A DNA stretch of 30,042 bases from a virus, in IMG/VR virus record IMGVR_UViG_3300037070_004296, positions 1-30,042 of that record. One strand, 5' to 3'. The position numbers and the translations under genes were made by a program. The notes below the pieces were generated by a model that ran no database searches, was not told where the DNA came from, and worked only from the letters and a program-made list of their open reading frames with translations. The first letter of the stretch is position 1, and each line of letters begins with the position of its first letter. Of the stretch, positions 9,023-30,042 are shown piece after piece.

Positions 9023-9445
9023 TTACGAAGCAGCCGGAGCCTCGGCCGGGGCCGGTGTAGGAGCCGGAGCGGCGACCACCGGGGGAGTGCTCAGCGTGAT
9101 GTAGCCGCGGAGCACCGCGGAACGAAGCCAGCCGGACGGAGTCTGGACCGTGCCCTTTCCGTTGGTGATGCCGACACAGCCGTCGCGGAACTCGCGCACC
9201 GTCTTGCCTTCGTAACCCTTGATGCGATTCAGCCACTCCAGGCGCTGGCCTTTGACGGTCACGACTTTGTCCACGACCTGAATCTTGGCGTCCAGGTGAT
9301 AGCCGTACGAGCCGCGCGGAGCCGTCTCCTTCGGGGGAGCATTCGGATCCACGACCTTGGGGACTTTCGGGGCCTTCGCAGCCTTCGGGGCCTTCTCCTT
9401 GGTCGGAGGAGTCAGGTCGGGAGCGGAAACAGTTGCGTCGTTCAT
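9023..9445 (-). CDS. Ala/Pro/Lys-rich protein with small DNA-binding-like core
   Basis: This 140-residue protein has a basic, low-complexity N-terminal tail (KEKAPKAAKAPKVPK) and a compact core at about residues 46-120. A Pro/Ala tail ends the protein. The core has YEGKTVREF and later PSGWLRSAVLRGYITL, a short helix-wing pattern shared with the 22680-23003 product (YNGKPVAEF ... YLRGLVRRGWVTL). Flexible basic tails suggest a nucleic-acid-binding role. AAGGA lies 7 nt before ATG 9445. The gene has its own candidate promoter (9522-9494) and a strong terminator, unlike its neighbours, and is richer in G+C than they are. This is the layout of a separately controlled, highly expressed, possibly acquired gene. 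Confidence 0.65.
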   Translation of the reverse strand: MNDATVSAPDLTPPTKEKAPKAAKAPKVPKVVDPNAPPKETAPRGSYGYHLDAKIQVVDKVVTVKGQRLEWLNRIKGYEGKTVREFRDGCVGITNGKGTVQTPSGWLRSAVLRGYITLSTPPVVAAPAPTPAPAEAPAAS

Positions 9446-15961: not shown

Positions 15962-16153
15962 TTACAGATTCCACCCAAGTTTGTCAGCGTAGCGTTTCAT
16001 TTCTACGTAGACATTATGGTCTATTGCGATACGGTCAGTGGGTCTTTCATGGTTGTTGGCGTGAAGCCAGATTTGATAACCGTCGTGACCGATGTAGACT
16101 CCATCACCGAGGTAACGAGGTTCTCTGAATTGCGGGTTCTCTTCCTTTTCCAT
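15962..16153 (-). CDS. Small phage protein with LGDGVYIGHDGYQIWL motif, 63 aa
   Basis: The sequence YLGDGVYIGHDGYQIWLHANN followed by a short helix (VYVEMKRYADKLGW) recalls a widespread family of very small tailed-phage proteins; the function is unknown to me. AGGAG lies 7 nt before ATG 16153, and the start overlaps the previous stop by 1 nt (TAATG). It is the last gene before the internal promoter of the minus operon. Confidence 0.7.
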   Translation of the reverse strand: MEKEENPQFREPRYLGDGVYIGHDGYQIWLHANNHERPTDRIAIDHNVYVEMKRYADKLGWNL

Positions 16154-16428
16154 TAGTTAGCTCCTGTGTTCATGCCAACATCTTCTTCTCTCTGTTTTAT
16201 GATCAGCTTGATAAACTCTGTTTGGTTTCGTACTCCTAGTTTGGCAAAGAGTTTGGCCTTGTGTGTGGACGCTGTCTTAGGAGAGATGCCAAGCTCCTCT
16301 GCGATGGAAAGAATCGTCTTGCCCTCGTACAGGCCGTCCATGATCTCTTGCTGTCGTGGGCTCAGAGGCACTTTAAGAACCTCGCGTGAAGCTGTGAGTC
16401 CAAATGGCAGTCCATATTGTCCTTGCAT
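16153..16428 (-). CDS. Stand-alone LuxR-type HTH regulator
   Basis: Residues 21-79 form a complete LuxR/GerE helix-turn-helix: LSPRQQEIMDGLYEGKTILSIAEELG, then ISPKTASTHKAKLFAKLGVRN and TEFIKLI. There is no sensor or receiver domain, and the first 20 residues are short. GAGGAG lies 8 nt before ATG 16428. Its first 67 nt overlap the end of the membrane-protein gene in another frame. As an early-operon DNA-binding protein it could redirect host transcription or switch phage promoters. Its targets are unknown; repeats in this window are possible candidates. Confidence 0.85.
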   Translation of the reverse strand: MQGQYGLPFGLTASREVLKVPLSPRQQEIMDGLYEGKTILSIAEELGISPKTASTHKAKLFAKLGVRNQTEFIKLIIKQREEDVGMNTGAN

Positions 16429-17074: not shown

Positions 17075-17332
17075 ATGAACAGACGTGGATTCTTTAAGCT
17101 GCTCGCTTCTGGTCTTGCAGTTCCAGAAGAACTGCTGGTTCCGACGAAATCAATCTTCCTAGCTCCCATCGGGGGCTGGATTCATAACGGTCTAGTGATC
17201 ACACCTGAACTTTTAGTAAGCTCAGGGATCATTAGCAGATACTCTGGATACGATGTTATCTTTGTGCCTCCCAATGAGGTGCTGAAGGAAACAGATATGA
17301 TCTGGAGTCAAAGGTACGGGGGACATCTGTGA
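17075..17332 (+). CDS. Small protein with twin-arginine-like N-terminus, 85 aa
   Basis: The N-terminus MNRRGFFKLLASGLAVPEE has RRGFFK followed by a short hydrophobic stretch, like a TAT signal, although that stretch is short and no clear cleavage site follows. The rest (IFLAPIGGWIHNG ... YDVIFVPPNEVLKETDMIWSQRYGGHL) is beta-rich. I recall similar RRxFxK-starting short proteins in other tailed phages, without known function. AGGGA lies 5 nt before ATG 17075. It overlaps the primase-helicase start by 4 nt (GTGA), so it is the first gene of the plus early unit. Confidence 0.65.
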   Translation: MNRRGFFKLLASGLAVPEELLVPTKSIFLAPIGGWIHNGLVITPELLVSSGIISRYSGYDVIFVPPNEVLKETDMIWSQRYGGHL

Positions 17333-19305
17333 CAGTACTCAGCTTCCGGACCTTCAAGGTTCCGCAAGTAACCGAAACTAAATTCTTTCAATCTGTCGAA
17401 AAAGCTAATGAGGACTTCGCACGAGATGACTTAAAGCGAAGTGGACTAGACCTTACGGATCTAGGAGCCTACACTCATCCGATGCTTAGGCTTCCGGAGA
17501 AGGCTCAGGCTGGCTACGTGATTCCGTACTTTGGCCTAGACGGGAACCCGATAGTAGACGGACAGAACAATCTAATCATGCATAGGACTCGGTTGAAGTA
17601 CCCCGAGTTTGCAAAGGAATCAAGATACACTCAACCTTCCGGCGAGCAACTGGTGAAACATGGCCTCCCTTCCTATCTCCCCTACTTCCACCCCCTCAGT
17701 TTCAGCAATCAAGGAGACGTATTCGTCTGCTGCGAAGGGGAGAAAAAGACAGTCTCGGTCCTTAAGTATCTCGGTCTACCCGCGTTCGGTATCGGCGGTT
17801 GTCAAATGTGGCGGGATCCGGGTGGATCTGGAGCTATCCACCCGTGGATTAAAAGACTATTCCAACAGCGTGGAATCCAAAAACTACTTATCATCCCAGA
17901 TGCGGATGTATTTAGATACGATATCTGCAATGCTTATGGAACTTTTGCAGCAGCCGCCGAAACAGAGGGACTTGCAGTTGAGATCGCAAACCCGCAGGGA
18001 AAAATTGACGATCTCATCGTATCGTGGGGAAAGGATGCGTTGGAACTGTTTGGGGCTCTGCCACGCATTGCTTCAAAGGACCTCGTCCAGAGTCCTAATA
18101 GTCTCATTAAGAGGTTCAATCTTGCTTTCCGCGTCGATGCAAAGGATCGCCCGATAGTTCACCAGCATACGTCCAACATCATGCGACTCATGGAGGAGCA
18201 CTCTGCCTTCCCCAAAGTCTGGCGCAACTTGGACAATAACAGAGTTATGATCGGCGACAATGCTGCTCAGCCTGATCTAACTGAGATGGATATCGCCAAT
18301 TACTTCCAGCATAATCTCGGCTTTGACAAGGTCGGACACAAGACCATCTACTCTTGCATCCAAGCTCTATGCAAACGGAACGCAAGGAGCCCAATGCTCG
18401 AGTACATCAAGGGACTATCTTGGGACGGGGAACCAAGACTTGACACTTGGGCGATACGTCACTGGGGAGTTAAGGATACTGAGTTCAACCGGGAGGCGAT
18501 GTCCAAGTGGATGATAGCCTCTTGTGCTCGCATGGACAAGCCGGGTACGAAGGTAGATTGGATGCTCATTGTGACAGGCCCCCAAGGGACTGGGAAGACT
18601 TCAATGCCATCGATTCTATTCAAAGAGAACAATCTGGTACTCTACGGCGAGCACTCGGATAAGGACTTCCATATGCTCCTTCATTCATCTCTTTGTGTCG
18701 GGTTCGACGAGCTGGACAACTTCGGTAAGAAAGAGACTACATTCTTAAAGGCAATGATATCGAGGTGCGAAGATGCATTCCGACCTCCCTATGGACCAAG
18801 CGTTGAAGTCTTTCCACGTCGCTTTACACTCTATGGCTCTGGCAATCGCCATGAGTTTCTACAACACGACCCATCGGGATATCGTAGATACGCTGTATTG
18901 GAAGCTGGTAGAAAGTTGGACTTCGGAGGGCTTGATGCTGAACGAGACCATCTTTGGGCAGAGTCGTGGGCTCGCTACGTTCAGGGATGCGATTACTTTG
19001 AGCTCGCCGGAGCAAGTGAGCAGGCTGAACGATTTGTGGTGCCAAATCCCATAGAGGATCAGATAATCAATTGGATAGAGATGCAGAAGACGAACAAGAG
19101 TGGAACGAATGTGAAGGATGGATTCCTGTACTTCACTATGACTCAGCTTCTAATGGGGATTAATAGAGAACGTGATCTTTCTAATTCGTTCGCTATTCGT
19201 GAAGTTGCAGCGGTCTTACATAAGCTAGGATGCGAACAAAAGAGTAGTCAGGGATCTCCCGTCCCAGGCGTCTATGGACGTTATTATCAAGTGTCTACGA
19301 GCTAG
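17329..19305 (+). CDS. Primase-helicase: Toprim-like N-terminus plus VapE/VirE-type helicase
   Basis: This 658-residue protein appears to be the replicative primase-helicase. Residues about 100-240 form a Toprim-like (DUF3854-type) domain with CCEGEKK (Glu136) and IPDADV (Asp191, Asp193). Residues about 355-550 match the VirE/VapE family of P-loop ATPases: YIKGLSWDGEPRLDTW, Walker A GPQGTGKT (417-424, Lys423), Walker B VGFDELD (Asp460, Glu461), and an arginine-rich sensor SGYRRYAVL. No N-terminal zinc finger is visible. The start is GTG 17329 overlapping the previous stop. It would prime and unwind DNA for the PolA encoded on the other strand. Confidence 0.88.
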   Translation: MTVLSFRTFKVPQVTETKFFQSVEKANEDFARDDLKRSGLDLTDLGAYTHPMLRLPEKAQAGYVIPYFGLDGNPIVDGQNNLIMHRTRLKYPEFAKESRYTQPSGEQLVKHGLPSYLPYFHPLSFSNQGDVFVCCEGEKKTVSVLKYLGLPAFGIGGCQMWRDPGGSGAIHPWIKRLFQQRGIQKLLIIPDADVFRYDICNAYGTFAAAAETEGLAVEIANPQGKIDDLIVSWGKDALELFGALPRIASKDLVQSPNSLIKRFNLAFRVDAKDRPIVHQHTSNIMRLMEEHSAFPKVWRNLDNNRVMIGDNAAQPDLTEMDIANYFQHNLGFDKVGHKTIYSCIQALCKRNARSPMLEYIKGLSWDGEPRLDTWAIRHWGVKDTEFNREAMSKWMIASCARMDKPGTKVDWMLIVTGPQGTGKTSMPSILFKENNLVLYGEHSDKDFHMLLHSSLCVGFDELDNFGKKETTFLKAMISRCEDAFRPPYGPSVEVFPRRFTLYGSGNRHEFLQHDPSGYRRYAVLEAGRKLDFGGLDAERDHLWAESWARYVQGCDYFELAGASEQAERFVVPNPIEDQIINWIEMQKTNKSGTNVKDGFLYFTMTQLLMGINRERDLSNSFAIREVAAVLHKLGCEQKSSQGSPVPGVYGRYYQVSTS

Positions 19306-19428
19306 CGCGCCAGCGCGTATATAATAAGGTTTGAGACTGAGCAAAAAGAGCTTGCATTTGAAAACCTAGAGCTGCATCATATAGGTGCGGGCTTACACCG
19401 CACTGGAAATCTAACCGAGGTAACTTAA
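19306..19428 (+). other. Leader/spacer before the small-gene cluster
   Basis: This 123-nt gap holds a TATAAT (19320-19325) without a good -35, and a TTGCAT (19352-19357) followed 17 nt later by CATCAT, a poor match to the phage promoter. A hairpin GTGCGG/CCGCAC sits at 19385-19403. One of these may start or tune transcription of the small-gene cluster; none is convincing. Confidence 0.3.
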
Positions 19429-19701
19429 ATGAAATCTCTACGCTTAAAGAACACACACGTTTTCCGCGAAGGTTACATCACCTTCCCCAGCATCAACAAG
19501 GCAAAGGACTTCTCCCGCAAGCTCGGGGGTGCTGGTCAGGTCAGCGTAATCCACCGCTTCCCCACGGCTTACTCTGTCTTCGCCCTTAAGGCCGGGGAGT
19601 TCCCTGACGACATGGAACTCACGTACTTCGCCGCCAACTTCCAGGCCCAGCTCGACCAGCTGGAAGAGATGGCCGACAAACTGGCGGCGGTGAAGTCATG
19701 A
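19429..19701 (+). CDS. Small early protein, 90 aa
   Basis: GAGGT lies 7 nt before ATG 19429. The product MKSLRLKNTHVFREGYITFPSINKAKDFSRKLGGAGQVSVIH... has a mixed alpha/beta start and a long C-terminal helix (FAANFQAQLDQLEEMADKLAAVKS) that may dimerise. No family is recognised. It is the first of about ten very short, overlapping plus-strand genes that end near 21656, a typical accessory early region. Confidence 0.65.
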   Translation: MKSLRLKNTHVFREGYITFPSINKAKDFSRKLGGAGQVSVIHRFPTAYSVFALKAGEFPDDMELTYFAANFQAQLDQLEEMADKLAAVKS

Positions 19702-19988
19702 AGTTCGTAAACGAACATGGCCGGAATGCCCATAGCTCCTGGATGCTCAAGCAGCTTGGGGTCAAAAAGCTCCCCTCCGAAGGTATGCCGATTCGCATGG
19801 TCCAGGATATCATGGTGTGGGTGGAACCGTTTGTTCCTGCCTTCCGCAGTGGAGTCCGGGTTAAGAGTTCCACCCACCGCGTCCGCTGCTACTGCCCGGA
19901 GTGCGGAAAGAAAATGTCGGCCGGTCGCCTTCACCAGCACATCTGCAAGCCCACCACCAAAGACACTTTGTCGGGGTTACAGAAATGA
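19698..19988 (+). CDS. Zinc-finger-like small protein, 96 aa
   Basis: The C-terminal half holds RCYCPECGKKMSAGRLHQHIC, a C-x2-C-x10-H-x3-C zinc-finger arrangement in the style of C2HC fingers. The N-terminal half (about 1-50) is mixed and basic at the end. ATG 19698 overlaps the previous stop (ATGA). It may bind DNA or RNA, or be a protein-protein adaptor. Targets are unknown. Confidence 0.65.
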   Translation: MKFVNEHGRNAHSSWMLKQLGVKKLPSEGMPIRMVQDIMVWVEPFVPAFRSGVRVKSSTHRVRCYCPECGKKMSAGRLHQHICKPTTKDTLSGLQK

Positions 19989-20230
19989 CACACGAACAGG
20001 CAATCCGATGGTTCAAGGATGACTTCGACATTAACATGAATCGAGTCATCGGTGTTAAGGTTCCTGACGAAGCCCTTGACATCGCAGCTGAAGGAGTCGT
20101 GCTGTACACTGAAACTGTCACCAAGGACCCCACTCGTCTTCATGCGTTTATGACAGGGATGTCAGTGCTTCTCATGAATCTCGCAATGGCTGACAACGAT
20201 GGCGCATTTCTCTTTAGGGAGTTGGAATAA
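19985..20230 (+). CDS. Small helical protein, 81 aa
   Basis: ATG 19985 overlaps the previous stop (ATGA); a longer frame starting at 19901 would lie inside the zinc-finger gene and is rejected. The product (MTHEQAIRWFKDDFDINMNRVIGVKVPDEALDIAAEG...) is helical, acidic and ends in a Met/Leu-rich helix (AFMTGMSVLLMNLAMADNDG). No family is recognised. It is coupled to genes on both sides. Confidence 0.6.
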   Translation: MTHEQAIRWFKDDFDINMNRVIGVKVPDEALDIAAEGVVLYTETVTKDPTRLHAFMTGMSVLLMNLAMADNDGAFLFRELE

Positions 20231-20484
20231 TGAACAACGTAATCTATGAACGTGAACTCTGGCACAAGGCGAACCACAACCGCTGGAGAGTCTGTGTGAC
20301 CAAAGAAGTGAACATCTACTGTGTGTTCGTGGAGGCATGGTCCACCCTCGGGGAGGAAGTGGGCAAGCCCGAACTGGTGATTCATGTCCCCGTCCTCCAG
20401 TCCAAGGCCAGCGAGATCTGCCTTGAACTCGCCTGCTATATGTTCAAAGACAAGCGCGCCCTCCAGGGCTGGGAGGTTATGTGA
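20230..20484 (+). CDS. Small early protein, 84 aa
   Basis: The start overlaps the previous stop by one base (TAATG). The product (MNNVIYERELWHKANHNRWRVCVTKEVNIYCVFVEAW...) has three beta-like strands, then a helix with Cys and Tyr residues (ASEICLELACYMFKDKRALQGW). Four cysteines are present without a metal-site pattern. Function is unknown. Confidence 0.6.
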   Translation: MNNVIYERELWHKANHNRWRVCVTKEVNIYCVFVEAWSTLGEEVGKPELVIHVPVLQSKASEICLELACYMFKDKRALQGWEVM

Positions 20485-20684
20485 TAACGCTGTTCAGATC
20501 TTCGGATAAGAGGCACCCCGGCTTCCGCTTCGTTGAGCACCCGTTCGAGGTTCCTCCCCCTGATATGAAGGGGTACAATCGGTTCACGACCCTTTCCCGT
20601 CACATGGATCTGGACCAGCTCACCAAAGATGAAAGAAAAGCTGTAGAACTCTTAGGACAGGAGATTGAAACATGCGGGGCGTGA
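20481..20684 (+). CDS. Small early protein, 67 aa
   Basis: GTG 20481 overlaps the previous stop (GTGA) and has GGGAGG 4 nt upstream, a strong ribosome site for a GTG start. The product is basic at first (MITLFRSSDKRHPGFRFVEHPFEVPPPDMKG) and ends in an acidic helix (LTKDERKAVELLGQEIETCGA). No family is recognised. Confidence 0.6.
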   Translation: MITLFRSSDKRHPGFRFVEHPFEVPPPDMKGYNRFTTLSRHMDLDQLTKDERKAVELLGQEIETCGA

Positions 20685-20917
20685 TAAAAGCCAAGACGTT
20701 CGATGATGTGATCTTCTACGGGGCTGAGCGGGGCCTGTCCGTGTTCCCGATCAAGCAGCCCGACAAATGGAGGGACGAGTGGTACTTCAACTTCGCCCCT
20801 AACATTGGAGTCGAGGAGATCTGCCGTTGGTACAACGAAACAACAGAGCGGAGGGATGGCGGCTACGTCCATGGAACCCTCCTGTTCTACAGCGAGGGAG
20901 AGTACAGCCATGTCTAA
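20672..20917 (+). CDS. Small early protein rich in Tyr/Trp, 81 aa
   Basis: AGGAG lies 8 nt before ATG 20672, inside the end of the previous gene, with a 13-nt overlap. The product (MRGVIKAKTFDDVIFYGAERGLSVFPIKQPDKWRDEWYF...) has a high aromatic content and an EEICRWYNE helix. It shows no known motif. Its position suggests an accessory early function. Confidence 0.6.
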   Translation: MRGVIKAKTFDDVIFYGAERGLSVFPIKQPDKWRDEWYFNFAPNIGVEEICRWYNETTERRDGGYVHGTLLFYSEGEYSHV

Positions 20918-21122
20918 GTACGGTTGCGGAGCTACGTTCACGATCTGGGTCCCAAGAGGATGGAATCAAAGGGAGGTCAAGGTGCGCTGTGGGAGCACGG
21001 CTATTGACGGTGGAGTCAACCAGTGTCAGCACTGTGAAGTGATCGTCGGTCAGCCCCCACTCCCCATGGAAGAGGAGGGAGACCTTGAGTGGGACCACAG
21101 GGTCAACGGGGGAGGAGAGTAG
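20910..21122 (+). CDS. Four-cysteine zinc-ribbon-like small protein, 70 aa
   Basis: The start is ATG 20910, supported by GGGAGAG about 7 nt upstream; a longer in-frame start at 20805 overlaps the preceding gene and lacks support. Cysteines at 6, 27, 39 and 42 (YGCGA ... VRCGS ... CQHC) fit a zinc ribbon. The tail is acidic. It may bind nucleic acid or modify a host complex; no specific family is recognised. Confidence 0.6.
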   Translation: MSKYGCGATFTIWVPRGWNQREVKVRCGSTAIDGGVNQCQHCEVIVGQPPLPMEEEGDLEWDHRVNGGGE

Positions 21123-21123
21123 A

Positions 21124-21318
21124 ATGAAAGTCGGAGATAGAATTCTAGGAAAAGAGGGGCACTTGAAAGGACTGCTCCTTGTGATAAGGGAGATAGGGGA
21201 CGACATGGACTCGGTCACCTACGACTGCGAAGTCCTGGAGGATGGTAGGCTCTATCGGAAGGGAGATGAAGTGACCCTCTACCGCTTTGAATTCGAAAAG
21301 ACGGAGCAACTGTCATGA
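21124..21318 (+). CDS. Small beta-barrel-like protein, 64 aa
   Basis: ATG 21124 follows the previous stop by one base, with GGAGGAGAG just upstream. The product (MKVGDRILGKEGHLKGLLLVIREIG ... YDCEVLEDGRLYRKGDEVTLYRFEFEKTEQ) alternates strands and turns like a small SH3- or KOW-type barrel. That resemblance is by eye only. Confidence 0.6.
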   Translation: MKVGDRILGKEGHLKGLLLVIREIGDDMDSVTYDCEVLEDGRLYRKGDEVTLYRFEFEKTEQLS

Positions 21319-21380
21319 TTTGGTTCTGGATAGCCGTGTTCCTATACGCGTCCTGCTCGAATTGGGATAACAAGGAGTAA
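21315..21380 (+). CDS. Tiny membrane/lipoprotein-like peptide, 21 aa
   Basis: ATG 21315 overlaps the previous stop (ATGA), and the frame ends at TAA 21380. It encodes MIWFWIAVFLYASCSNWDNKE: a hydrophobic helix, then YASC, which resembles a weak lipobox, then a short polar tail. If processed it would be a minute lipoprotein. The next gene's ribosome site (AAGGAG at 21372) lies inside it, so it could also just be a coupling leader. Confidence 0.4.
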   Translation: MIWFWIAVFLYASCSNWDNKE

Positions 21381-21383
21381 GAT

Positions 21384-21656
21384 ATGGTCGGACTTAATCG
21401 CTTCTACCCTCTCATTGATTGCTGCTGCTTCATCATTGCTGACATGGGAGGGGAGCCAGATAGGAAAGAATACCTTGGGATGGACTGTCCATTGGACAAA
21501 AGTGTCCTCCAGATTGCAAGCGAGCAATGGGGGGAGAGAATGTCGCTACTCGCCAAAGCCCGCGCCGTCCGTAGCGCGACCCTTGAGCTCGACAAAGGGA
21601 GGGGAGCGAAGGAGATAGACGAGTTCATTCGCTGGTTCCTTGATCGGGAGGGATGA
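21384..21656 (+). CDS. Small early protein, 90 aa
   Basis: AAGGAG lies 6 nt before ATG 21384. The N-terminal part has a run of three cysteines (LIDCCCFIIADMGGEPDRKEYLG) and the C-terminal part is helical and basic (SLLAKARAVRSATLELDKGRGAKEIDEFIRWFLD). Its last 32 nt overlap the end of the convergent minus-strand gene. No family is recognised. It is the last plus gene before the regulatory region. Confidence 0.6.
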   Translation: MVGLNRFYPLIDCCCFIIADMGGEPDRKEYLGMDCPLDKSVLQIASEQWGERMSLLAKARAVRSATLELDKGRGAKEIDEFIRWFLDREG

Positions 21657-21873
21657 CAATAGACTTCATATCTACGAGGTACGGCTCGAATTCGGCAGGA
21701 AATCCATAGTAGTACCGTCCAAATCCCAGGTCTTTACCTGGGATTTTGATTCTACGGACTATCATTCCACGGGATATAAGTTCGTCAGCAAGGGATTTAC
21801 GAAAGCGATAGGAACCGAATTGGGATTCAACACCATTGGCGATGGCTATTTCACGAAGAGTCATAAGAGGCAT
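21625..21873 (-). CDS. Lone minus-strand winged-helix-like protein, candidate regulator
   Basis: ATG 21873 has GGAG 6 nt upstream and a candidate promoter (TTGCTC-N17-TACCAT) with an expected start near 21895. The 82-residue product reads MPLMTLREIAIANGVESQFGSYRFRKSLADELISRGMIVRRIKIPGKD in segments, then GFGRYYYGFPAEFEP. This is consistent with a helix-turn-helix followed by a wing. It is the only minus-strand gene between two plus-strand blocks, and GTAAC repeats overlap its promoter, which suggests self-regulation. An opposing plus-strand frame over the same region lacks a ribosome site and looks like a shadow. The HTH call is by eye. Confidence 0.55.
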   Translation of the reverse strand: MPLMTLREIAIANGVESQFGSYRFRKSLADELISRGMIVRRIKIPGKDLGFGRYYYGFPAEFEPYLVDMKSIVIPPDQGTSE

Positions 21874-21901
21874 GGGTAGCTCCAGGTATGAAGGGTAACA
21901 T

Positions 21902-21930
21902 ATGGTAACAGTCCACAACAGGGAGAGCAA
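21902..21930 (-). promoter_or_regulatory. Candidate promoter TTGCTC-N17-TACCAT
   Basis: On the minus strand TTGCTC (21930-21925) and TACCAT (21907-21902) are 17 nt apart. The start would be near 21895, 22 nt before ATG 21873. It overlaps two GTAAC repeats and the plus-strand terminator. Confidence 0.5.
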
Positions 21931-22132: not shown

Positions 22133-22313
22133 GTGTTTCGGGACGTGGACTAGCAATCCCCTGCCCATTCTCCCATCCATTTCATTTGTCGATGTCTAAT
22201 CTTACGTCCAAATCCCAGCTCGAGAGGCTCCGGATAACATAACAGAAGTTAACATAATACACAGATAACATAATACGGAGCTGCATTATGTTAAACTCCT
22301 GTCATAATATAGA

Positions 22314-22447
22314 TGGCACGGTCCTTGCATATGCAAAAGCTGTGCCACATCTTTATTATGTAAGATGGCATAAAGATTGCTATGCAATAACCGTGCCATC
22401 CGTATTATGTAATCTGGCACAGATATTGCCATGCAAAAGCCGTGCCA
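22314..22447. promoter_or_regulatory. Three 33-34 bp palindromes with sigma-54-type arms
   Basis: Palindromes at 22314-22347, 22366-22398 and 22415-22447 each run from TGGCA(C/T) to GTGCCA around a TTGC...GCAA centre. Every arm fits the sigma-54 promoter layout, TGGCAC plus 1, N4, then TTGC: TGGCACG-gtcc-TTGCA, TGGCATA-aaga-TTGCT and TGGCACA-gata-TTGCC on the plus strand. TGGCACA-gctt-TTGCA, TGGCACG-gtta-TTGCA and TGGCACG-gctt-TTGCA read on the minus strand. Head-to-head sigma-54 promoters touching at their -12 elements could not all work at once. The array may therefore bind a dimeric protein, titrate RNA polymerase-sigma-54, or form an origin-like iteron set. Confidence 0.65.
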
Positions 22448-22519
22448 CGTCTTTATTATGTTAAAGAGCTCTTATATCTTAACATAACGCTCCGCATTAT
22501 GGTAAGTGTCAAAAATTGG

Positions 22520-22554
22520 CACAATGTGTCCAAGGACGACACAATGTGCCCAAG
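22520..22554. repeat. 20-bp tandem repeat CACAATGTG(T/C)CCAAG
   Basis: CACAATGTGTCCAAG (22520-22534) and CACAATGTGCCCAAG (22540-22554) differ at one base and are 20 bp apart, about two helical turns. Each contains the palindrome CACAATGTG. The first is preceded by TTGG, making another TGGCAC, but no TTGC follows at the right distance. Confidence 0.5.
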
Positions 22555-22612
22555 AGCGTCAGGTAACATAATAGAAATTGGCAAGGGAGGCGTCTGGCTG
22601 GCCTGTTTGGGT

Positions 22613-22628
22613 TGGCACGGGGGTTGCA
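22613..22628 (+). promoter_or_regulatory. Sigma-54-type promoter TGGCACG-N4-TTGCA
   Basis: TGGCACG (22613-22619), GGGG, TTGCA (22624-22628) matches the sigma-54 consensus at every conserved base and spacing. It is a single arm, not a palindrome. The start would be near 22640, about 40 nt before ATG 22680. A hairpin GCCAGC/GCTGGC (22640-22657) begins at that point. A TTGCAT/TATGCT pair is also present but with a 19-nt spacer. Confidence 0.55.
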
Positions 22629-22679: not shown

Positions 22680-23003
22680 ATGTCCAAAGCCACAAAGTCC
22701 ATTGCCGCCCCTGCCGCCGCCGAACCCGTAGTGGTTGCCCCTAAGGTCACGCCGGTTACTGCCAGCGCGCCCGTAGTGCAAACCCTTAGTGTCAAGCCGG
22801 GCATTGTGTCCCGGGGCGCGCGTGCCGCGTGGTACGCTCTGGCCCTCCAGTACAATGGCAAGCCGGTCGCCGAATTTTTGGCCGCTGGCACGGCAAATCC
22901 GCCGTCGCTGTATACGGCGCGGTCCAAGCACAACGGCAATCCGCATAGCGCGGTCGGCTACCTGCGCGGTCTGGTACGCCGGGGGTGGGTCACCTTAGTC
23001 TAA
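22680..23003 (+). CDS. GC-rich small DNA-binding-like protein in repeat cassette
   Basis: The start is ATG 22680 with AGGTG 4 nt upstream; an in-frame ATG at 22578 lies before the candidate promoter and is rejected. This 107-residue protein has an Ala/Pro/Val-rich N-terminal tail (about 1-40) and a basic core with SRGARAAWYALALQYNGKPVAEF. The core ends in SAVGYLRGLVRRGWVTLV, like a short helix-wing. The core resembles that of the 9023-9445 product. Codon use is much richer in G+C than the flanks. It stands alone between TAACATAAT repeats on both sides, with a sigma-54-like promoter in front and a strong terminator behind. It may bind the flanking repeats, but that is inference. Confidence 0.6.
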   Translation: MSKATKSIAAPAAAEPVVVAPKVTPVTASAPVVQTLSVKPGIVSRGARAAWYALALQYNGKPVAEFLAAGTANPPSLYTARSKHNGNPHSAVGYLRGLVRRGWVTLV

Positions 23004-23075: not shown

Positions 23076-23117
23076 TTACATAATAAAGATGTAACATAAT
23101 ATGGATGTAACATAATG
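23076..23117. repeat. TAACATAAT repeats (downstream group)
   Basis: TTACATAATA (23076), TAACATAATA (23092) and TAACATAATG (23108) follow the terminator, with a partial TCATAAC at 23126. They mirror the upstream group and frame the 22680 gene. From 23134 to 23236 no gene or clear motif is seen. Confidence 0.6.
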
Positions 23118-23776: not shown

Positions 23777-23879
23777 GGAGGATGCGCTCCCGCCAGTGGA
23801 GCCCTCCGACCCCGTGGTCGTCTCCGAGGCTGATCTTGATCTCGGGTTCGAGGACGAGGATGGAGAGGATGAAGAGTGA
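23658..23879 (+). CDS. Small acidic protein between terminase genes, 73 aa
   Basis: ATG 23658 has GGAGAG 4 nt upstream; an in-frame ATG at 23646 has no such site. The product starts MRSKAELIEIYGVEGVRERSPGRLQVMEEH and ends in a run of Asp and Glu (DLGFEDEDGEDEE). It overlaps the small terminase by 119 nt in another frame and the large terminase by 4 nt. It may be a packaging accessory or DNA mimic; no family is recognised. Confidence 0.6.
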   Translation: MRSKAELIEIYGVEGVRERSPGRLQVMEEHAGRKMVWVDEEDALPPVEPSDPVVVSEADLDLGFEDEDGEDEE

Positions 23880-25306
23880 GTCGGATAGAGCCCTCACCGG
23901 AAGGGGAGATCGTAGTACCCTACGTTGCTCGTCGTCAATTCCTTCCGTTCCATTCTCGTTCCCAGCGGTTCAGCTGCATGGTCTGTCATCGCCGTGCGGG
24001 GAAGACAGTCGCCTCCATAAACGAACTCATCGCCAGAGCAATCTACAGCAAGAAGAAGAGACCTCGCTATGGCTACATCGGCCCCCAACTCAAGCAAGCG
24101 AAGAAGATCGCTTGGGAGTACCTCAAAGAGTACACTCAGGGTCTATGCGACAAAGTATCGGAATCGGAACTATACGTACGACTTAAACACAATGGAGCTG
24201 AGATCTGCGTCTACGGTGCCGATAATCCTGACTCCTTCCGAGGCCAGTATTTTGATGGAATCGTTCTTGACGAGTATGGGGATATGTCCCCTTCGGTCTG
24301 GGGCAAGGTTCTACTTCCAACGCTCGCTGACCGGAAAGGATGGGCTGTTTTTATTGGGACATTCAAAGGGAAGAATCACTTCTATAAAGTTCATAGAAGA
24401 GCCGAGGGGAAGGACTTACTCCCCACAGAGGACGCTGAATATTTTAGAAAGAACTGGTATTCTTTCCTTCTAAAGGCCAGCCAATCCGGGATCCTATCAG
24501 ATGAAGAACTGCAACTCCAAAAGATGGAGCAAGATGATGAAGAGTACCAGCAGGAGTTTGAATGCAATCCAAACGCGGCTGTCAAGGGAACATACTACGC
24601 GTCAATCATCGCCAGCCTTGAGACTCGCGGTCAGATCTATAACGACCGGGCAGCTTATGACCCTGAATTCCCCGTCGACGTATGGAGTGATCTCGGCATA
24701 TCAGATTCTACCGCTCTCTGGTTTAGTCAACGTCGTCCCGACGGGTACGCCCTGATAGACTATGACGAAGCAAGTGGAAAGAAGCTGGAGTACTATTCCG
24801 ATCTACTGTATGCGAAGCCATATCGTTACGGGACCATTTGGGCTCCGCATGACATTAGAGCTCGCACCCTCCAGACTGGGCGCTCCACTATCCAGATGTT
24901 TCTCGAGCAGTTGGAAGATATCCAGCGCTTTGATCGCACTTCCGTCGATCCCATTGTACGTATTATTCCCAAGCTCGCGATTCAAGACGGTATTCAAGCG
25001 ACTAGGAAGATCCTATCTGACTGCTACTTCGCCTCCTCCACCACAGATGGGGTTGAGGCCCTCCGGGCATACAAGAGAGCATGGGACGAGGATAGGAAGG
25101 TGTTCCAAGAGCACCCTCACCATGACTGGTCATCGAACGGAAGCGACGCCTTCCGGGGCTTCGCGATCATGGCGAAAGGAATAGTGACTCTAGCCGAGAT
25201 AGAGGCTAAAGAGAACGAGCACAAAGTGAAACTACCAGAAATTCAACTTGAGCCCTTGTTCGAGCATCGCGAACGAGTGCTACGCATGAACAGGGGCAGA
25301 GTATGA
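23876..25306 (+). CDS. Terminase large subunit
   Basis: This 476-residue packaging motor has Walker A HRRAGKT (38-44), Walker B IVLDEYG (Asp132, Glu133) and the coupling motif FIGTFKG (159-165). The C-terminal RNase H-like nuclease has DLGISD (Asp272) and WAPHD (Asp326). The late SSNGSDAFRGFA segment matches the usual third nuclease region. It cuts concatemers and drives DNA into the head with ATP. GTG 23876 overlaps the previous stop (GTGA) with GGAGAGG 7 nt upstream. The portal gene overlaps its end by 4 nt. Confidence 0.93.
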   Translation: MSRIEPSPEGEIVVPYVARRQFLPFHSRSQRFSCMVCHRRAGKTVASINELIARAIYSKKKRPRYGYIGPQLKQAKKIAWEYLKEYTQGLCDKVSESELYVRLKHNGAEICVYGADNPDSFRGQYFDGIVLDEYGDMSPSVWGKVLLPTLADRKGWAVFIGTFKGKNHFYKVHRRAEGKDLLPTEDAEYFRKNWYSFLLKASQSGILSDEELQLQKMEQDDEEYQQEFECNPNAAVKGTYYASIIASLETRGQIYNDRAAYDPEFPVDVWSDLGISDSTALWFSQRRPDGYALIDYDEASGKKLEYYSDLLYAKPYRYGTIWAPHDIRARTLQTGRSTIQMFLEQLEDIQRFDRTSVDPIVRIIPKLAIQDGIQATRKILSDCYFASSTTDGVEALRAYKRAWDEDRKVFQEHPHHDWSSNGSDAFRGFAIMAKGIVTLAEIEAKENEHKVKLPEIQLEPLFEHRERVLRMNRGRV

Positions 25307-27510
25307 ACGAGACTTCAACATACGGGTCCAAGGCTAAGTCCAAGGGAGAGAGGAAAAATCCCAACGAGCAGTTCCCGGATACGGAAGCTGGATGGGCCTC
25401 TCGCTGGTCAGCTGAATTCGTTATCGCAGAGCGAGAACTGGACAAGTGGCTGAAGCAGGGAAAGAAGGTAATCCACCGCTTTTTGGACGATAAGCGGGGA
25501 GAGATTGAGACGGTAGGGGATCTCCAGTCAAATCTCAACCTTTTCCACTCCAATACCATCCAGCTCCAGTCCATGCTATACGGACGTCTACCCAAAGTGG
25601 AGGTAGATAGGACTTTCGCAGACGCGAATGATGACGAGGCGCGTGTCGCAGCCCTCATCCTCTCGCGTATACTCAACCAGGACATCCAAGCGGCTGGAGA
25701 GGACTACGCTTCGGTCCTCCGCTCATGTCTCCAGGACCGCCTCCTCCCCGGCCTAGGCTCTGCTCGAGTGAAGTACGACTACAAGAGCGAGATCACGGAT
25801 GTTCCCCCGATCCTGGACCCCGTAACGGGGGAGGAAATGGCCGAGGGGTACGAAGATGAGAAGGTGACGGATGAGTGGGTGGATACGATTTACACTCACT
25901 GGACCGACCAACTATGGTCGCCCGCGCGCACGTATGGGGAGCTTCGGTGGAAGGCGTATCGCTCGTTTATGAACTACGACGAACTTTGCAAGAGGTTCGG
26001 CGATGAGGTTGCGAAGAATCTGCCAAAGACGTCAAAAGTTCCAGGGAGGGACAGCAAGAAGGAGGATTCGGTAGAGCCACAGACCGAGGTGTGGGAAATC
26101 TGGGATAAAACACGGACCAAAGTGTTCTGGTTCGTAAAGGGCTACGATAAAATCCTTGATTCAATGGACGACCCACTGGAATTAGAGGGCTTTTGGCCTG
26201 ATCCACCTCCAATGATTGCAAATGTCACTACGACGAAGTACATTCCTCGTTCTGACTACGTCCTCGCGCAGGACCTGTACAACGAAATCGACAAATTACA
26301 GACTCGCATCTCGATCCTCACGGATGCGTGCAAATCCATCGGCTTTTATGATAAGAACAACGCTGGAATCAAGCGTGCCATGCAAGAGGGAGTGGAAAAC
26401 GACCTTATTCCTGTTGATAACTGGGCGATGTACGCCGAGAAAGGAGGCGCAAAGGGAGTCGTAGACTGGATGCCAATTGAGACCGTCGCCAGGACAATTG
26501 AGATCCTCACCTCAAAGCAGGGTGAGAAGATCCAGCAACTCTACCAAATCACTGGTATGAGTGATATCATGCGGGGAGCTTCCCAGCCATACGAAGCAGC
26601 AGCGACGTCAAAGGCTAAGGTTGAGTTCGCCAGCATCCGTGTTCAGGCCCTACAGGACGACTTCGCGCGTTTCGCCAGCGAACTACAGAGCTTGAAGGTC
26701 CAGATTATACAGAATTTCTACGAGCCGTACTGCATCAAAGAGCAGTCGAACATCATGTTTACCGAAGACGGTAAGGATGAGATGCTTGTAGACCGAGCAA
26801 TTGCGCTGATTAAGGACAAGAAGAGAATCAAGTGGCGCATCACCATTCGCCCGGAGAGTCTTGCGCTCGCTGACTATGCGAAGCTGAAGGCTGATCGTAC
26901 TGAGTACATCAACGCTCTCTCAATGTTCATGCAGTCTGCGGCCCCGCTGGTCCAACTGGATAAGAAAATCACCCCAATTCTGCTTGAGCTCCTCAAGTGG
27001 GGCCTCGCCGGGTTCAAGGGTAGCAATGAGATTGAGGGTGTTTTGGACAAGGCCATCGCCCTATACCAGAAGATCTCCGAACAGCCAGACAACAAGCCAG
27101 ATCCTGAGCAGATGAAGGCTCAGGCTGAGATGCAGGCGATGCAAGCGAAGCAGCAGGCTGAGATGCAGAAGCTACAAGGCGAGATGCAGATGGCTCGGGA
27201 AGAGCACGCAGCTAAGATGCAGCAGAGCCAGATGAAGGCTCAGCAGGAGATGGCAGCTCAGCAACAGCAGTTCCAGATGGAATTGACCAAGATGCGGGCT
27301 GAAATCCAGCAGGACCAGCAGAGGTTCCAGTTGGAACTGAAGCAAATGATGATGGAATTCGGCATGAAGAAGCAGGAACTCGCTGTAGAGGTGGAAGCCA
27401 AGAGGGCTGAACAGCAAGATCAATTCACTTTCAATACGGCGGAGAGAGAACATGAGGCGGAGGTACGTCTACAATCCGACAACAAAGGAAATGGAGGAGG
27501 TAACAGTTGA
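25303..27510 (+). CDS. Portal protein with long coiled-coil C-terminus
   Basis: This 735-residue portal starts at ATG 25303, overlapping the terminase stop (ATGA). The body (about 20-600) has the usual portal pattern with NLFHSNTIQLQSMLYGRLPKVEVDRTF, early tryptophan-rich wing segments and a TSKAKVEFASIRVQALQDDFARFASELQ stem-like helix, as in large podovirus portals. From about residue 605 it becomes extremely rich in Met, Gln, Glu and Lys in a long coiled coil, which could form a barrel into the head. It forms the dodecameric ring through which DNA passes. The last 59 nt overlap the next gene. Confidence 0.88.
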   Translation: MNETSTYGSKAKSKGERKNPNEQFPDTEAGWASRWSAEFVIAERELDKWLKQGKKVIHRFLDDKRGEIETVGDLQSNLNLFHSNTIQLQSMLYGRLPKVEVDRTFADANDDEARVAALILSRILNQDIQAAGEDYASVLRSCLQDRLLPGLGSARVKYDYKSEITDVPPILDPVTGEEMAEGYEDEKVTDEWVDTIYTHWTDQLWSPARTYGELRWKAYRSFMNYDELCKRFGDEVAKNLPKTSKVPGRDSKKEDSVEPQTEVWEIWDKTRTKVFWFVKGYDKILDSMDDPLELEGFWPDPPPMIANVTTTKYIPRSDYVLAQDLYNEIDKLQTRISILTDACKSIGFYDKNNAGIKRAMQEGVENDLIPVDNWAMYAEKGGAKGVVDWMPIETVARTIEILTSKQGEKIQQLYQITGMSDIMRGASQPYEAAATSKAKVEFASIRVQALQDDFARFASELQSLKVQIIQNFYEPYCIKEQSNIMFTEDGKDEMLVDRAIALIKDKKRIKWRITIRPESLALADYAKLKADRTEYINALSMFMQSAAPLVQLDKKITPILLELLKWGLAGFKGSNEIEGVLDKAIALYQKISEQPDNKPDPEQMKAQAEMQAMQAKQQAEMQKLQGEMQMAREEHAAKMQQSQMKAQQEMAAQQQQFQMELTKMRAEIQQDQQRFQLELKQMMMEFGMKKQELAVEVEAKRAEQQDQFTFNTAEREHEAEVRLQSDNKGNGGGNS

Positions 27511-29088: not shown

Positions 29089-30042
29089 ATGGCATTTCCG
29101 AACGTCTCAGACGTTGTTGCTACGACTATCGAAAGTCGTAGCGGGGAAATCGCCGACAACGTAACGAAAAACAATGCTCTGCTCATGAAATTGAAGCAGC
29201 GCGGAAACATTCGTACGTTTGATGGCGGTTCGGTCATTTTCGAGGAGATTTCGTACGCTGAAAACGGCAACGCTGGATACTACAGCGGATACGACATTCT
29301 CCCTGTCGCTGCGCAGGATGTCATCTCTGCCGCGCAGTTCAGCATCAAACAGGCGGCGGTTCCCGTCGTCATCAGCGGACTGGAAATGCTCCAGAACGCT
29401 GGCAAAGAGAAGATCATCGACATGCTCGATGGTCGCATGGATGTCGCCGAAGCCTCCCTCGCCAATCTGTTGGCTGGTGGCGTCTACGCTGACGGAACTG
29501 GTTCTGGCGGTAAAGAAGTGACTGGCCTCGGTGCCGCAGTCCCTCTCAACCCCACGACCGGAACCTACGGAGCGATTGATCGGGCGACGTGGGCGTTCTG
29601 GCGCAACCAGTTCACGGATACCACTGGCATCACTGCTGCGACCATCCAGGCTTCCTGGAATGCTCAGTGGGCCAAGCAGGTACGTGGACGTGACCGCCCG
29701 GACCTGATCATGGTGGACAACGTCACGTGGTCGTTGTACATGGCCTCACTTCAGGCCATTCAGCGGTTCGTGGATGTGAACTCTGCCAACCTCGGGTTCC
29801 CGTCCATCAAGTTCATGGATGCCGACGTGGTTCTGGACGGTGGCATCGGAGGCTTCTGCCCCGGTGGCGTCGCGTTCTTCCTGAACACGAAGTACATCTT
29901 CTGGCGGCCGCACGCTCAGCGGAACATGGTCCCTCTCTCACCGAACAAACGGTACGCGATCAATCAGGACGCTGAAGTCCAGATCCTCGCGTGGGCGGGC
30001 AATCTCACTACCTCCGGCGCACAGTTCCAGGGCCGTTGGGAT
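29089..30042 (+). CDS. Major capsid protein, cut by right edge
   Basis: ATG 29089 has GGAGG 4 nt upstream, and the frame is open to the right edge for 318 codons. The N-terminus MAFPNVSDVVATTIESRSG, then NVTKNNALLMKLKQRGNIRTFDGG and SGLEMLQNAGKEKIIDMLDGRMDVAEASL, match a capsid family common in podovirus-like phages, presumably of HK97 fold. Later segments WAKQVRGRDRPDLIMVDN and FRP-like FWRPHAQRNMVPL also fit. It follows the scaffold gene and has its own promoter and structured leader, consistent with very high late expression. Confidence 0.9.
   Translation, partial: MAFPNVSDVVATTIESRSGEIADNVTKNNALLMKLKQRGNIRTFDGGSVIFEEISYAENGNAGYYSGYDILPVAAQDVISAAQFSIKQAAVPVVISGLEMLQNAGKEKIIDMLDGRMDVAEASLANLLAGGVYADGTGSGGKEVTGLGAAVPLNPTTGTYGAIDRATWAFWRNQFTDTTGITAATIQASWNAQWAKQVRGRDRPDLIMVDNVTWSLYMASLQAIQRFVDVNSANLGFPSIKFMDADVVLDGGIGGFCPGGVAFFLNTKYIFWRPHAQRNMVPLSPNKRYAINQDAEVQILAWAGNLTTSGAQFQGRWD

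Follow-up and report, generated by a model that had tools for sequence, protein, structure and literature searches.

A phased array of facing sigma-54-type sites

The array at 22314-22447 of the window (the whole 30,042-base stretch of viral DNA that was analysed) is composed of facing pairs of sigma-54-type sites, and we propose with moderate confidence that it acts as a sigma-54 (RpoN) promoter hub of compact bidirectional promoters. As a previous sequence-only reading had described, three units of 33-34 bp with two facing arms each are present: TGGCACGGTCCTTGC-ATAT-GCAAAAGCTGTGCCA at 22314-22347 (34 bp, with 4 bp between TTGC and GCAA), TGGCATAAAGATTGC-TAT-GCAATAACCGTGCCA at 22366-22398 (33 bp, with 3 bp between them) and TGGCACAGATATTGC-CAT-GCAAAAGCCGTGCCA at 22415-22447 (33 bp, again with 3 bp). 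All six arms had been assigned to one consensus; five indeed follow TGGCAC-N5-TTGC, whereas the sixth (22366-22380) carries TGGCAT. Given the standard spacing from -12 to +1, the predicted divergent starts lie at about 22340 (+) and 22321 (-) for the first pair, 22392 (+) and 22372 (-) for the second, and 22441 (+) and 22421 (-) for the third.

A seventh exact site, unpaired and missed by that reading, consists of TGGCACGGGGGTTGC followed by A at 22613-22627 on the plus strand and is identical in L235, a record of the same phage. It is located directly upstream of ORF 22680, and its predicted start (about 22639) lies 41 nt 5' of the ATG at 22680. The pattern TGGCAY-N5-TTGC matches exactly seven times in the 30,042 bases, all inside 22314-22627, against a mean of 0.18 and a maximum of 2 in 100 dinucleotide-preserving shuffles, which bears out the claim that the arms far exceed chance. 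When two mismatches are allowed, the pattern is not enriched across the whole window (30 found versus 22 expected), so the signal resides in the exact matches and their clustering.

The arms fit the sigma-54 consensus at positions left free by the search

The published sigma-54 consensus reads mrNrYTGGCACG-4bp-TTGCWNNw (PMC2725144). Its promoter core, comprising the -24 GG, the -12 GC and the fixed N5 spacing, is found in the seven exact sites of the window, and its flanking bases (mrNrY, the G after CAC and the W after TTGC) are found set-wide at positions that the search pattern left free. Specifically, with the T of TGGCA numbered 0, Y occupies position -1 at a frequency of 0.78-0.85, R occupies +6 at 0.98 (G alone at 0.63-0.77) and -4 at about 0.70, and W follows TTGC at 0.87-0.93. 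The background frequency is 0.44-0.56 for a two-base class and 0.20-0.24 for G. At positions -5 and -2 the enrichment is only weak. Part of this profile persists in arms lying over 400 bp away from arrays, and one-mismatch arms near arrays show an excess neither at the -24 GG nor at the -12 G. Additionally, a control pattern with a six-base spacer (N6) inside each arm has no viral match. The constant N5, combined with a flexible gap between facing cores, indicates that each arm is read singly, in a sigma-54-like manner, rather than as half of a rigid dimer site. Taken together, the fit of the free positions, the empty N6 control and the NtrC boxes beside some arrays sustain the earlier assignment, and the arms are, on sequence criteria, strongly supported as sigma-54-type sites. 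The gene psbA, a cyanophage check that would weaken the sigma-54 reading, was found in none of 45 records, an absence that proves little.

Facing pairs have the geometry of bidirectional promoters

Among the matches listed, the gap between facing cores is never 0-2 bp, mostly 3-8 bp and flexible up to 20 bp. At standard spacing, the predicted start separation equals 23 minus the gap, that is, 16-20 bp at gaps of 7-3 bp; gaps of 3-7 bp dominate, so that the predicted starts of the opposed cores are about 18 bp apart. Promoters that overlap and face each other are already known for sigma-70 as bidirectional promoters, a class in which start sites are most often 18 bp apart (PMC12825309). The sequence-only reading had held that facing promoters abutting at the -12 element are not a normal promoter design, a view that needs tempering in the light of this class.

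Neighbouring arms placed back to back are separated by 5-12, 16-21 or 25-32 bp, with distances of 13-15, 22-24 and 33-37 bp empty. This phasing has a vector strength of 0.53 versus 0.17 in a jitter null of 4000, and its best periods, 11-11.5 bp, are near and slightly above the helical repeat. Helical phasing suggests that neighbouring complexes may meet each other or a shared activator.

The array is a feature of many unrelated viruses

In a scan of IMG/VR, the facing pair was found in at least 119 viral stretches, and the gap was 3 or 4 bp in all of those listed, although 0-2 bp was allowed; wider gaps do occur, mostly of 5-8 bp and sparsely up to 20 bp. The dense pattern, defined as a facing pair with a third arm within 32 bp, matched at least 119 viral stretches versus once in 257 Gb of bacterial and archaeal genomes, a contrast that points to the array being a virus feature. 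Because prophages would appear in bacterial genomes, array phages presumably integrate rarely. The sole match from a bacterial genome, L228, is a 4.3 kb contig of a Verrucomicrobiia MAG on which no phage genes can be recognised, and the facing pair is absent from 387 other genomes of its phylum. The 279 stretches among the matches listed, which like all counts derived from them are samples and not prevalences, fall into 109 groups when stretches are joined through any protein that they share at 70% identity or more; their common terminase family forms 30 groups at 50%, and the GC content of array stretches ranges from 0.30 to 0.68. The motif scan of relatives that had been suggested found paired units in L088 (terminase 64% identical) and L084 (49%), the latter with one pair, so the absence from close relatives that would have told against the earlier reading is not observed. 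DNA similarity searches with three array regions against annotated phages gave no match.

The position of the array is largely constant. Among the matches listed, it lies upstream of the common-family terminase in 151 of 153 loci and upstream of a second terminase family in 12 of 12. Frequent neighbours on the right, all on one strand, are a small basic protein (c1), an endolysin, the terminase, the portal, and scaffold-like and head proteins (the last two by our own reading of the sequences), and frequent neighbours on the left, all on the opposite strand, are a primase-helicase, a thymidylate synthase and a DNA polymerase. ORFs of at least 300 aa contain only 2 of the 371 pairs, a count limited by the simple ORF caller used to delimit them.

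The arms do not simply serve the late genes. Unpaired arms are directional, pointing towards the replication module in a ratio of 120:50, and in the main lineage a sigma-70-like promoter stands between array and terminase in 51 of 133 loci, versus 12 on the opposite strand; these two features argue that the hub is not simply a late promoter. A model of late promoters only is likewise disfavoured by the arm nearest the late genes, which points away from them in 107 of the 133 main-lineage loci.

NtrC boxes accompany the arrays of some lineages

The NtrC box has the consensus TGCACCAnnnTGGTGCA, TGCACCA-N3-TGGTGCA (PMC8743547). Eighteen such boxes lie within 300 bp of pairs (7 loci), versus 4 elsewhere in 12 times more DNA, and the same box with an N2 or N4 spacer has 0 matches. 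The relaxed form TGCAC-N7-GTGCA occurs 32 times near pairs in 19 loci and 8 times far from them. L053 carries seven NtrC boxes on both sides of its arms, and in the full viral scan a box stands 15-45 bp before an arm in 19 contigs, several of which have tandem unpaired arms. The box is restricted to certain lineages, and the window has none.

As for the proteins, a phage-encoded enhancer-binding protein was rejected, the activator domain having a single marginal match in 45 records, and so was a phage-encoded RpoN-like protein, the sigma-54 DNA-binding domain exceeding the cut-off in 0 of 45 records, with two sub-threshold matches. Since the phages are nearly without activator domains and without a sigma-54 DNA-binding domain over the cut-off, the factors would be those of the host.

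Other local motifs were also observed. A GTGAGNNCTCAC dyad, possibly the site of a second regulator, occurs near arrays of L011, L053 and related loci; 13 copies lie near arrays, in 11 loci, and 1 lies far away. Between their arms, L239 (200-5700) and L179 carry distinct repeated motifs (TTCGAACGTTYGTACGAA; GAGTTAYGTAAAG), which gives the impression that every lineage adds a regulator site of its own to constant sigma-54 arms.

Neighbourhood of the array in the window

The first gene downstream of the array (22680-23003, +) encodes 107 aa and has a homolog in L088 that is likewise located just downstream of a facing pair. Its product and that of 9023-9445 (-) each have an Ala/Pro-rich N-terminus and are weakly similar in the C-terminal domain (30% over 67 aa); the two may be DNA-binding paralogs. 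The packaging and structural module follows, with the terminase large subunit at 23876-25306 (+), the portal protein at 25303-27510 (+) and the major head protein at 29089-30042 (+), whose frame runs off the record end. To the left lies a divergent ORF of uncertain start at 21625-21930 (-), which has no family match and is otherwise seen solely in the near-identical L235. No other minus-strand candidate precedes the plus-strand genes of 17075-21656, so that the divergent layout is only partial in the window, whose main strand switch is near 17 kb, not at the array.

Two candidate activator sites, the dyads GTGTC-N7-GGCAC (22506-22522) and GTGTC-N7-GACAC (22526-22542), are spaced 20 bp apart and lie about 97-133 bp 5' of the start predicted for the 22613 site, where an enhancer is usually found. 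By chance, 0.09 matches to GTGYC-N7-GRCAC would be expected in the window, a figure to be read with the choice of the motif after inspection in mind. The motif is not general in other lineages, and general dyads as universal enhancers were rejected because they show no preferred spacing, so the window dyads remain a lineage-specific guess.

Copies of TAACATAAT / ATTATGT(T)A in both orientations flank the pairs and alternate with them between 22250 and 22572; these TTACATAAT-type copies around the units had also escaped the earlier reader. About a dozen copies of TTACATAAT / TAACATAAT are present in two intergenic regions, 22250-22572 and 23076-23116, and the motif is also dispersed in the relatives L084 and L035. 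The copies are probably sites of a lineage-specific regulator. The gene at 16153-16428 (-) encodes a 91-aa protein that contains a GerE/LuxR-type helix-turn-helix and is a candidate for binding to the TTACATAAT motif.

Proposed mechanism

We infer that host RNA polymerase with sigma-54 would bind each facing pair in either orientation and transcribe from it in both directions, the two orientations of one pair being mutually exclusive, with starts 16-20 bp apart at gaps of 7-3 bp. Several helically phased pairs are stacked between genes, upstream of the packaging genes and, in most mapped lineages, with a divergent replication module opposite. Firing would require a host enhancer-binding protein, namely NtrC where NtrC boxes are present; the window phage would rely on another activator, for which the tandem dyads at 22506-22542, ahead of the unpaired promoter at 22613, are candidate sites. 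More tentatively, unrelated phages could have converged on this virus-specific, phased bidirectional sigma-54 hub, which would let host activators that respond to stress or nutrients decide between the replication and packaging programmes (in some lineages NtrC, and with it nitrogen limitation); we regard this extension as possible, with a probability somewhat short of even.

Alternative readings

The array could instead be a sponge or roadblock, in which the many high-affinity sites of replicated phage DNA hold RpoN or its polymerase as closed complexes with little transcription, thereby silencing the RpoN regulon of the host or keeping the two modules insulated from each other. Sigma-54 closed complexes are stable without activator. 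The idea, already raised by the sequence-only reading, is kept alive by some records with more sites than would be required for promoters (21 sites in 14 kb; tandem arms at 18 bp), and it accords with the helical phasing of neighbouring arms, which suggests co-occupancy, and with the rarity of phage-encoded activators. However, facing cores separated by 3-8 bp are expected to be mutually exclusive, so that half of the sites would be wasted; a sponge needs neither a fixed position upstream of one module nor NtrC enhancers, and the unpaired arms are directional. We therefore consider a sponge unlikely and prefer the promoter hub.

A still less probable reading is that the array forms part of a replication origin, where transcripts that start at the arms would prime or activate replication. 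DnaA boxes are enriched near arrays, where 30 loci contain 81 of them, whereas the remaining DNA, about eleven times as much, contains 41; in these 30 loci, for example L013, perfect boxes (TTATCCACA) are clustered beside the array. On the late strand, 57 of 158 loci have a GGGGGAGGGGG-type (G5AG5) tract close to the array, against 7 with the tract on the opposite strand and 5 with it far away. In L007, L013, L022 and others of the largest terminase group, the tract mostly follows the array within 0-160 bp; we take it to resemble the mitochondrial CSB II element, which favours the formation of RNA-DNA hybrids. These boxes and tracts beside arrays indicate that an origin may share the array region in the largest lineage. 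On the other hand, both features are mostly found in one terminase subgroup; the window contains neither an exact DnaA box nor a G5AG5 tract, and the turning point of its cumulative GC skew is near 18 kb rather than at 22.4 kb. What stays constant is the sigma-54 site, unlike the origin parts. The origin role suggested earlier thus finds counterparts in other lineages but not in the window itself.

It had also been suggested that a phage protein evolved the same site. The site of such a protein (for example the 16153-16428 product or a packaging protein) would resemble a sigma-54 element by coincidence, and the array does adjoin terminase genes in a window that encodes small DNA-binding candidates. 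Yet the same arms occur in unrelated phages in which the neighbouring motifs differ, they carry the full sigma-54 consensus at free positions, their flexible gap speaks against a rigid dimer, and the 45 records searched lack a sigma-54-like DNA-binding domain over the cut-off, which leaves this reading very improbable.

A hairpin or cruciform element in DNA or RNA is hardly credible, since, although single units are foldable as RNA (z -4.6, -5.4 and -2.0), the N5 segments of paired arms match at 1.47 of 5 positions versus 1.82 in shuffled pairings (sd 0.06; 291 distinct pairs), mixed C/T and G/A arms are in excess, also with one pair per group, and complementarity below chance, avoided rather than kept by covariation, argues against it.

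Implications and comparison with known systems

Consistent with the earlier remark that no such phage element was known to that reader, our search of open papers (subscription literature lay outside it) found neither a description of such phage arrays nor sigma-54 as a phage promoter factor. If the promoter-hub reading is true, the arrays would represent a new class of phage control region, common to about a hundred phage groups among the matches listed, and the sigma-54 equivalent of bidirectional promoters. In lineages with NtrC boxes, host nitrogen status would be linked directly to phage development. The findings suggest that arrays are a shared, undescribed means of coupling the expression of phage genes to a stress or nutrient circuit of the host, and the array signature may suggest which uncultured phages infect rpoN-bearing hosts.

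Named phages related through the terminase (about 40% identity), such as Rhodoferax phage P26218, share with the window phage a related terminase and head genes downstream of it; unlike the window phage, they have no facing pairs in the stretches examined. The core, the spacing and the flank preferences of the phage arms are those of bacterial RpoN -24/-12 promoters. Known bacterial sigma-54 promoters are mostly single and one-directional, whereas the phage arms form facing pairs in phased arrays, and do so in viruses. In several phages, NtrC boxes upstream of sigma-54 sites resemble the NtrC-sigma-54 units of the E. coli glnAp2 type; unlike in those units, the boxes are interleaved with facing pairs, no phage NtrC accompanies them, and the window phage lacks them. 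The sigma-70 bidirectional promoters of E. coli and plasmids have a symmetric core that is used either way with mutual exclusion (PMC12825309, PMC10268837). The phage pairs appear similar in their symmetric core, their predicted use in either orientation with mutual exclusion and their predicted starts about 18 bp apart, whereas the sigma-70 promoters are built on a -10 element, have no requirement for an AAA+ activator and are not arranged in arrays.
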